From the NCBI RefSeq assembly GCF_040546585.1, contig NZ_JBEPOC010000001.1:2418001-2482000 (forward strand): a stretch of 64,000 nucleotides of DNA, read 5' to 3'. Below, in pieces: positions 2-6,980 of this stretch. The number at the start of each line of letters is the position of its first letter. Position 1 is the first letter of the stretch. Position numbers and translations under genes: made by a program. Under the pieces are notes generated by a model, which did not search any database, had not been told where the DNA came from, and saw only the letters and a program-made list of their open reading frames with translations. This DNA comes from Marmoricola sp. OAE513. GTDB lineage: Bacteria > Actinomycetota > Actinomycetes > Propionibacteriales > Nocardioidaceae.

Positions 2-385
2 GATGCGCTGGCAGCCGACTGGCATCAGCTGATGGGTCGGTACCAGCGGCTGATGTGCGCGCTCGACCGCGAGCTCAGCGCCGGTCACGACCTGACGGCC
101 AGCGAGTTCGAGGTGCTCCAGCAGCTGGAGCAGTCCGACCAGTGCAGCCTGCGAATGGCTGTGCTCGCCGAGAGCGCCCACCTGACGCAGAGTGCCTTGT
201 CGCGGTTGGTGTCGCGTCTAGAGCGCGACGGACTGGTCACCCGTGAGACCTGCTCCACCGACCGTCGTTCGCTGTTCGTGAAGCTGACCAGCGAGGGGCG
301 CGCGCGCTACGCCGAGGCCCGCCCCACCCAGCGCCGTGTCCTGCGCGAGGACGGCGGCGGGTGCCTGGAGCCGGCCCGCTCCTGA
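2..385 (+). CDS. MarR-family transcriptional regulator, 5' partial
   Basis: The frame is open from base 2, so the true start lies upstream of the window. The translation holds a winged-helix core typical of MarR regulators: a helix around ASEFEVLQQLE, a recognition helix in TQSALSRLVSRLERDGLV, and the wing sequence CSTDRRSLFVKLT. Such dimers repress nearby efflux or detoxification genes in response to small phenolic ligands. About 127 residues are visible, and the C-terminus ends abruptly in a glycine-rich tail (REDGGGCLEPARS) instead of the usual final helix. It may therefore be slightly truncated or frameshifted near 350. The regulated gene is not visible. The family call is confident; target and completeness are unknown. 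Confidence 0.75.
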   Translation, partial: DALAADWHQLMGRYQRLMCALDRELSAGHDLTASEFEVLQQLEQSDQCSLRMAVLAESAHLTQSALSRLVSRLERDGLVTRETCSTDRRSLFVKLTSEGRARYAEARPTQRRVLREDGGGCLEPARS

Positions 386-6697: not shown

Positions 6698-6726
6698 TTG
6701 TCCAGGAGTGACCTCCGACGTAATCT
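6698..6726 (+). promoter_or_regulatory. Housekeeping-type promoter of a short transcript
   Basis: TTGTCC (6698-6703), a 17-nt spacer and TAATCT (6721-6726). The predicted start near 6733 lies just before an unusually long Shine-Dalgarno sequence, so the leader before the mini-ORF is only about 25 nt. Confidence 0.5.
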
Positions 6727-6757
6727 CGAAGCACACGGAAAGGAGGTGGTCCCAGTA

Positions 6758-6796
6758 ATGCATTCTTCTAGGACAAGTGAGGTGGCTGCTCGCTAG
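6758..6796 (+). CDS. 12-residue mini-ORF MHSSRTSEVAAR
   Basis: ATG 6758 to TAG 6794-6796 encodes MHSSRTSEVAAR. The start lies 4-5 nt after an extended Shine-Dalgarno that is complementary to about 14-16 bases of the 16S rRNA tail, far more than any other gene in the window. Such complementarity is hard to explain unless translation is real. From memory, similar short ORFs ending in a V-A-A-R-like motif after an AGGAGGTGGTCC sequence recur in actinobacteria, but I cannot verify this or name a family. No function is proposed. Confidence 0.5.
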   Translation: MHSSRTSEVAAR

Positions 6797-6857
6797 CAGC
6801 GCCCGGTCCCTCGGGACCAACCCGTCGGCGCTGCCGACGAATACCAAGCAGTCACCC

Positions 6858-6916
6858 GACCCGCAGGCGAACCGGTGGTCCACCGGCCAGAACCGTCAGG
6901 TTCACGCCTGCGGGTC
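6858..6916 (+). terminator. Large terminator-like hairpin of the short transcript
   Basis: GACCCGCAGGCG (6858-6869) pairs perfectly with CGCCTGCGGGTC (6905-6916). The enclosed loop contains a CCGGTG/CACCGG hairpin and AACC/GGTT pairing. The following T-content is modest, so termination may be partial or the structure may have another role. Confidence 0.5.
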
Positions 6917-6951
6917 GCTGCTTTCGTGACGTCCTTCACAAAGGTTGCGCC

Positions 6952-6980
6952 TAGCAACTAAATAGTTGCAGAATGCAACT
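6952..6980 (+). promoter_or_regulatory. MarR-type operator with three half-sites
   Basis: Three alternating half-sites, GCAACT (6954-6959), AGTTGCA (6964-6970) and TGCAACT (6974-6980), form two overlapping inverted repeats that end directly at the ATG of the efflux gene. AGTTGCA/TGCAACT is typical of actinobacterial MarR operators. The MarR gene at 8555 is the obvious ligand. A weak promoter (TTCACA 6935-6940, TAAATA 6959-6964) would place the operator over the -10 and transcript start. Confidence 0.65.

Follow-up and report, generated by a model that had tools for sequence, protein, structure and literature searches.

The closest described relative of the element reported here is Ms_IGR-5, which we take to have been first catalogued as a mycobacterial small RNA (sRNA) in a source of 2010 and which Rfam holds as RF02471 (Ms_IGR-5, "Actinobacteria sRNA"). 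In the available extracts of the published work, an Ms_IGR-5 RNA with RNA-seq support appears in a re-annotation of S. lividans (PMC8079986), Ms_IGR-5 is among the sRNA transcription units mapped in S. avermitilis (PMC8780764), and cold-stress RNA-seq of M. smegmatis overlaps IGR-5 (PMC10454040). A Ribo-seq study of M. abscessus has, in its available text, ribosome-protected reads on Ms_IGR-5 in both M. abscessus and M. smegmatis, together with the caution that true non-coding RNAs also yield protected reads (PMC4974804). The S. coelicolor RNA scr4389 is in Rfam and is a candidate only for identity with Ms_IGR-5. In the available extracts of the open-licence PMC literature (subscription papers and supplements lie outside it), no conserved ORF, second Shine-Dalgarno sequence (SD) or non-actinobacterial members are described for Ms_IGR-5, and we found there neither RNA-level conservation of an ORF, the helix called P1 below or non-leader status, nor a known role. 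The family is thus already known; to it the sequence comparisons presented here would add the geometry of an ORF, a second SD, P1, members beyond the Actinobacteria and non-leader status.

The window, that is, the whole 64-kb stretch of DNA that was analyzed, contains a single Rfam match above the cut-off. This is RF02471 at 6733-6923 (+), matched over model positions 1-184 with 111.6 bits (E value of 2.6e-24), where the gathering score that serves as the Rfam cut-off is 45. The genome (one contig, 3.89 Mb) holds 1 copy, which lies between two genes and has a conserved promoter motif and a terminator hairpin. Its features are as follows.

6698..6726, + strand: promoter (TTGTCC at 6698-6703, 17 nt, TAATCT at 6721-6726)
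6733..6923, + strand: whole RNA, a member of RF02471 Ms_IGR-5 (cmscan, 111.6 bits)
6739..6752, + strand: first SD (SD1), AAAGGAGGTGGTCC (site GGAAAGGAGGTGGTCC, ending at 6752), complementary to nearly the whole 16S 3' tail with one G-U pair
6758..6796, + strand: 12-codon ORF MHSSRTSEVAAR, from ATG at 6758 to the stop TAG at 6794-6796; the start/stop layout is kept in relatives
6779..6785, + strand: second SD (SD2), GAGGTGG, within the ORF; the G of GAG is 15 nt 5' of the stop codon
6781..6790, + strand: 5' arm of P1, GGTGGCTGCT (GGUGGCUGCU), from the last base of codon 8 to the first base of codon 12; from the minimum free energy (MFE) fold and covariation
6796..6834, + strand: P2 hairpin, GCAGCGCC (6796-6803) with GGCGCTGC (6827-6834) and an inner hairpin at 6805-6818; from the centroid fold
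6840..6845, + strand: AATACC, unpaired; corresponds to the AAUCC/AAUCCCAA motif that relatives have 5' of the P1 3' arm
6847..6856, + strand: 3' arm of P1, AGCAGTCACC (AGCAGUCACC), directly 5' of the terminator and similar to the 16S anti-SD
6857..6917, + strand: terminator-like hairpin with a 13-bp outer stem (6857-6869/6905-6917); predicted fold
6878-6881, + strand: GTCC in the inner loop of the terminator, which might form a pseudoknot with the complementary GGAC of codons 5-6

The promoter, long SD, 12-codon ORF, TAG and hairpin starting from the last base of the stop codon that made up the original prediction were all found in place. Its terminator-like stem was there too, one base pair longer than the 12 bp it had been given. 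We infer a transcript start at about 6733. The folding energy of the 198-nt RNA has a z score of -6.0, and 0/200 shuffled sequences folded equally well; around P2 the MFE fold differs from the centroid fold. The terminator-like hairpin has no real U-tract, and a simple consensus scanner detected neither a promoter nor a terminator at the locus.

One 16S 3' end of the same genome reads GGATCACCTCCTTTCT. The duplex of SD1 with this tail is calculated at -28.2 kcal/mol, compared with -28.4 kcal/mol for a perfect complement, and SD1 is the strongest 16S-tail complement among the 33,998 16-mers scored, which were those on either strand of the window that contain GGAG, GAGG, AGGT or GGTG. The exact 13-mer AAGGAGGTGRTCC occurs 3 times in the 3.89-Mb genome: at the RF02471 locus, apparently antisense to a coding frame, and antisense to the 16S end. 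Its rarity, the rank of SD1 as a 16S complement and the conserved ORF geometry described below led us to reject a chance origin of the locus. The GGAGG core of SD1 (6742-6746) is 11 nt from the start codon. For SD2, the duplex with the 16S tail is -11.3 kcal/mol, and the GAGG core (6779-6782) and the last sense codon (6791-6793) are 8 nt apart. Because 8 nt is the usual spacing between an SD and the P-site codon, SD2 should be reachable by the anti-SD of a ribosome that has the stop codon in its A site. The 15-nt distance from GAG to stop was constant in every member read, and from the spacing we infer that 11 to 12 codons provide room for one terminating and one initiating ribosome in file. 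In some actinobacterial loci (L044, L047-L050, L052, L053, L055, and L058), GGTGGTTC or GGTGTTCC replaces the GGTGGTCC of SD1.

A near-maximal duplex with the 16S tail and the presence of two SDs could also mean that SD1 (and SD2) titrates 30S subunits through extended pairing, with no need for a switch, and the ribosome-associated reads from mycobacteria in the available text of the Ribo-seq study agree with this. Titration, however, calls for neither a start codon, nor an in-frame stop at a fixed distance, nor a covarying P1 (see below), and a single chromosomal copy would have to be transcribed at a very high level, so we regard it as improbable. The original prediction had named an sRNA or a ribosome-capturing RNA among its readings; these are compatible with the data in general, but in place of a plain ribosome trap the evidence favors folding that is gated by translation.

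Relatives of the element were collected with the Rfam model, with sequence patterns and with R1, a sequence-only model of the 5' part from SD1 to the stop. The Rfam-model loci (L001-L059, 57 unique) all have GAGGTG and were counted apart. L060-L195 come from patterns containing SD1 and GTGAGGTGGC, and in these loci the letters of both, including the GT of codon 7, are no evidence because they were built into the search. R1, some of whose weaker matches are partial, contributed its best-scoring loci (the best 20 of 46 for the Zixibacteria phylum). Together with the window's own locus there are 208 unique members: 178 actinobacterial, 19 from the Zixibacteria phylum, 8 from the 'Nitrospirae' phylum and 3 from the Acidobacteria phylum. 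This set leaves out L086 (a coding frame that matches the pattern), L196-L198, duplicates, L215 (runs of N), and L199-L204 and L225-L242, which repeat loci already included. The phylum labels of the non-actinobacterial groups derive from the names of the seed metagenome-assembled genomes (MAGs), and we take Bryobacterales (L083) to be Acidobacteria. The expected conservation of the ORF and ribosome site was borne out, and the first reading of this DNA was right to suppose that there are similar short actinobacterial ORFs. A promoter motif, TTGNNN-16..19-TANNNT, stands upstream of 153/178 actinobacterial members, 141 of them having it at one of two adjacent distances, and of 12/19 Zixibacteria-phylum, 2/3 Acidobacteria-phylum and 1/8 'Nitrospirae'-phylum members; when the upstream regions of all 208 members were shuffled by mononucleotide, the motif turned up in 91/4160.

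In each of the 57 unique Rfam-model members, an in-frame GAG-GTG is followed by a stop at a distance of exactly five codons, and each has a start codon (ATG in 40, TTG in 13, GTG in 4). For the wider set, in which the R1 match with a stop at +5 was chosen if there was more than one candidate, the stop is at +5 codons in 208/208. ATG, GTG, or TTG opens the frame in 201/208 (TTG 106, ATG 69, GTG 26), and the others (L179, L193, L217, L244, L245, L252, and L254) have CTG, TTA, TTT, TCG or no recognizable start. TAG, TGA, and TAA stops all occur among the 208 members, and the ORF is 12 codons long in 165/178 actinobacterial members and 11 to 17 codons long over all. Start codons and the three stop codons thus interchange with the geometry kept, a pattern expected of a frame that is translated. 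If the element were a purely non-coding, trans-acting sRNA and the ORF a by-product of conserved pairing sequences, its cataloguing as an sRNA and the 7/208 members without a standard start would be expected, and RNA structure does account for most of the conserved bases. Pairing does not explain, however, why three stops and ATG, GTG and TTG starts substitute for one another or why the frame is kept at lengths of 11 to 17, and we consider this explanation unlikely.

Codons 2 to 5 vary freely, as in MHSSR, MISHR, LYSNR, and LIDLW, or VGSTNPTA in another phylum. In the 57 Rfam-model members, E is encoded by GAG and V by GTG without exception. Codon 7 is CGT in 36, TGT in 13, AGT in 5 and another codon in 3, its last two bases being kept in 54/57, and codon 10 is GCT in 47, ACT in 6, GCG in 2, ACC in 1, and TCG in 1, which changes A to T or S in 8. 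The residue at codon 7 shifts while the last two bases are fixed, and therefore the constraint appears to act on the RNA. A functional 12-residue product (xxxxRT-R/C/S-EVA-A/V-R), with the RNA as its mRNA, would fit the conserved start, stop and length and the nearly invariant EVA. Against it, EVA lies exactly under SD2 and P1, where nucleotide constraint would explain the conserved peptide end, and for several of the changes at codon 10 (8/57) the partner strand has changed to match. Such a micropeptide gene is unlikely, and the dedicated peptide gene of the original prediction is not supported, given that the first residues are not conserved. Judging from the sequences compared, what is conserved is the RNA, including GAGGUG (SD2), and not the peptide, which is probably a by-product. 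Two of the loci with a divergent SD1, L053 and L058, also depart from NGT at codon 7 (GAA and TAC, respectively); all nine of these loci keep GAGGTG and its spacing from the stop. A type I toxin is not supported, as MHSSRTSEVAAR and the peptides of relatives that were viewed are short and largely polar and lack the character of a hydrophobic membrane peptide.

In the MFE fold of the window's RNA, P1 pairs codons 8 to 11, SD2 included, with the anti-SD-like segment just 5' of the terminator. P1 was evaluated in a thinned set of 106 actinobacterial sequences, with the 3' arm placed by a sequence anchor and not by pairing. In the 87 members that could be anchored (19 could not), 739/783 cells were paired, compared with 703.5 ± 3.3 (maximum of 716) in 2000 shuffles that ignore relatedness, and 29 cells had double changes, compared with 5.8 ± 2.1 (maximum of 14). 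A first, unthinned count gave 1260/1320 paired cells in 132 actinobacterial sequences, 48/187 sequences not being anchored. The helix examples viewed first were chosen by best pairing; anchor-placed arms that change together include GGTGGCTGAG/CTCAGTCACC, GGTGGCGGCG/CGCCGCCACC, GGTGGCTACC/GGTAGCCACC, and GGTGACTGCC/GGCAGTCACC. The evidence from sequence for covariation of P1 in Actinobacteria is strong. P1 was present in the MFE folds of 138/172 actinobacterial RNAs, compared with 94/172 when the tail was shuffled. Outside the Actinobacteria, a simple 10-mer anchor gave a weak result (43/70 cells, n = 7), and the MFE folds of real and shuffled tails were not separated (11/19 versus 7 in the Zixibacteria phylum, 4/8 versus 4 in the 'Nitrospirae' set, and 1/3 versus 1 in the Acidobacteria phylum). 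By eye, GGUGGCG/CGCCACC and GGUGGCC/GGCCACC pair at the place of P1 in the 'Nitrospirae' set.

In the first helix of the Rfam RF02471 consensus, part of SD1 is joined to bases of the codons that follow EV, whereas P1 pairs those codons with the pre-terminator segment. As P1 uses the codons of Rfam's first helix and covaries, the family structure may need to be rebuilt. An AAUCC(CAA) motif is bulged just 5' of the P1 3' arm, and in its strict form, AAUCCA/AAUCCCA, is found in 60/178 actinobacterial, 19/19 Zixibacteria-phylum, 1/8 'Nitrospirae'-phylum, and 1/3 Acidobacteria-phylum members. GTCC occurs within 60 nt after the P1 3' arm in 160/171 unique actinobacterial sequences, 153 of these 160 having the GGAC core. 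A pseudoknot between GGAC (codons 5-6) and GUCC in the terminator loop is a suggestion from these sequences: with the 67 unique pairs, 25 and 29 flanking pairs were observed against 21.6 and 27.0 expected, and the test fails. With all 160 sequences and G-U allowed, the flanking pairs numbered 71 and 97 against maxima of 70 and 88 in 2000 shuffles, and with Watson-Crick pairs only, they numbered 55 (maximum of 58) and 82 (maximum of 65), one of the two exceeding its maximum.

A start codon, a fixed distance from SD2 to the stop and a covarying P1 together have a translation-gated RNA as their simplest account. We propose, with a probability of roughly 0.55, that the locus encodes a free-standing Ms_IGR-5 small RNA that is also a mini-mRNA, with translation of the mini-ORF acting as its gate. 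The end of the tiny frame doubles as an RNA stem, and so the RNA probably changes shape when it is translated. SD1 would bring 30S subunits efficiently to a start codon that is frequently weak (TTG in 106/208), and the ribosome would then travel 11 to 12 codons, melting P1 and P2. At the stop codon, the ribosomal anti-SD may take SD2 and displace the 3' arm of P1. Since the ribosome would both melt P1 and P2 and capture SD2, the RNA would alternate between a folded state without translation, with P1 closed, and a ribosome-held state, with P1 open and the anti-SD-like 3' arm and the AAUCC motif exposed. Translation or termination activity could in this way set the fold of the RNA, its stability or its ability to pair in trans. 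In its exposed or closed form, the RNA might then pair with mRNAs, be stabilized or retain a ribosome.

The genes around the element vary. In the window, two ABC exporter genes are found upstream, and an MFS gene and a MarR gene lie downstream on the same strand; the neighbors of mycobacterial and other loci differ from these. Those of L064, L104, L142, L151, and others resemble genes for a fatty-acid-binding/nitrobindin-like protein, a YgfZ-like protein, and a sulfurtransferase. Such nitrobindin-like, YgfZ-like and sulfurtransferase-type surroundings, seen at mycobacterial and other actinobacterial loci, contrast with the efflux genes of the window. In the window, the palindrome GCAACTAAATAGTTGC (6954-6969), followed by GAATGCAACTATG (to 6983), is located at the start of the MFS gene, and the MarR gene comes directly after the MFS gene. 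Similar GTTGC/GCAAC repeats adjoin the RNA in the same-genus loci L010, L011, L016, L020, and L021.

The layout of ORF, competing helix and terminator, with P1 covering codons 8 to 11 and covarying, is that of a leader-peptide attenuator, which here would control the MFS transporter gene through terminator read-through. The MFS and MarR genes next on the same strand, the ABC exporter genes before the RNA and the 13 loci whose first downstream gene, on the same strand, is of MFS type and belongs to the same cluster are all in keeping with such control. A leader should lie upstream of its target and be co-transcribed with it across the family. According to a simple, composition-based and therefore crude ORF caller, however, the next downstream gene is on the same strand at 90 and on the opposite strand at 68 of 158 loci (L001-L179 with called neighbors, without L086 and duplicates; 68/161 before their removal). 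When first downstream genes are clustered, the largest group (22 loci) lies on the opposite strand, followed by the 13 same-strand loci of MFS type and by clusters of 12 on each strand, so that no same-strand cluster exceeds 13 loci, and the MFS gene has its own palindrome beside its start. On the strength of the opposite-strand genes and the small same-strand clusters, we rejected an MFS-gene leader, and attenuation of a downstream gene is very unlikely. Instead, the varied neighbors and strands and the conserved promoter motif make the unit look free-standing in Actinobacteria, in agreement with the original prediction that it is not tied to a downstream gene.

RF02471 was found in genomes sampled from the window's genus, order and phylum. 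The Rfam model was positive in 35/39 near genomes and, across the phylum, in 70/396 genomes at an E value of ≤0.001, the family cut-off being exceeded in 35 (own genome included in both the 39 and the 396). A pattern scan of named genomes yielded at least 120 loci. Among the 120 listed, 115 are actinobacterial, including Nocardioides, Mycobacterium, Amycolatopsis, Micromonospora, Geodermatophilus, and Cellulomonas, and the other five are MAGs of Bryobacterales (L083), Zixibacteria (L092), and Nitrospirae (L101, L132, and L159). In the phyla of L083, L132, and L092, the pattern was present in 3/297, 6/198, and 5/132 genomes (seeds included), and a reversed control pattern had 0 matches. R1 matched 6/196 'Nitrospirae'-phylum, 46/129 Zixibacteria-phylum, and 99/296 window-phylum genomes, with one match per genome except for two in G262. 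The listed contamination of G262 is 7.

Outside the Actinobacteria, the Rfam model scored above its cut-off for two Zixibacteria-phylum loci (58.0 and 50.2; L195 and L207) and two 'Nitrospirae'-phylum loci (54.6 and 45.8; L188 and L189). It scored below the cut-off for L191 (28.6) and L186 (26.1) and had no match at an E value of ≤0.05 in L185 and L180. Because of these low or absent scores, it is on pattern and layout that the assignment of the 'Nitrospirae' subgroup of L191 and of the three members from the Acidobacteria phylum is based. Actinobacterial contamination is unlikely for the Zixibacteria-phylum set, as more than one-third of the genomes are positive, the matches of L195, L209, L212, L214, and L219 are on contigs of 2.6 to 3.6 Mb, five loci measured have 43 to 56% G+C, and the loci read share a clade-specific form (11 to 12 codons, AAAUCCCAACAG). 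A search of viral contigs, made with the exact pattern only, returned 0 matches, and a phage origin is not supported. A broader reading, which we hold as tentative and on balance doubtful, is that RF02471 is of ancient origin, stands free of other genes and senses translation termination or ribosome recycling in three, perhaps four phylum-level groups. In such a sensor, a strong SD would load ribosomes on a minimal ORF that fits one terminating and one initiating ribosome, SD2, optimally distant from the last sense codon, would hold the terminating or post-termination ribosome, and the released anti-SD-like arm would be the output. We know of no free-standing RNA in which an SD anchors the stop codon.

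An RNA that catalogues list as non-coding throughout the Actinobacteria thus has an ORF geometry that is kept in several phyla. Its start, SD2 and stop are spaced to suit a ribosome and not a peptide, and in Actinobacteria the bases that code also make up a covarying helix. If the translation-gated reading is correct, a stand-alone RNA reads out translation status, which would provide a handle on the function of Ms_IGR-5 and a warning against calling such RNAs non-coding. The Rfam entry describes an actinobacterial sRNA, whereas a conserved ORF and above-cut-off loci in the Zixibacteria and 'Nitrospirae' phyla are found here. Dual-function sRNAs of the SgrS/SgrT type likewise combine an ORF and conserved RNA elements in one small RNA; in Ms_IGR-5, by contrast, the coding and structural parts overlap, making use of the same bases, and the peptide is for the most part not conserved. 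In regulatory upstream ORFs and leader peptides, as the available text on the E. coli topAI upstream ORF describes them (PMC12121999), translation of a short ORF decides RNA structure, and the same may apply to Ms_IGR-5, which differs in having a promoter and a terminator of its own, in lacking a shared target gene that is co-transcribed with it and in carrying a second SD at a fixed distance before the stop. Pairing beyond the usual 4 to 7 bases, as in SD1, is found at the extended Shine-Dalgarno start sites of S. aureus, according to the available part of that report (PMC13009471), but there it is a general feature of start sites, whereas in Ms_IGR-5 it is joined to a 12-codon ORF and a second SD at the stop.
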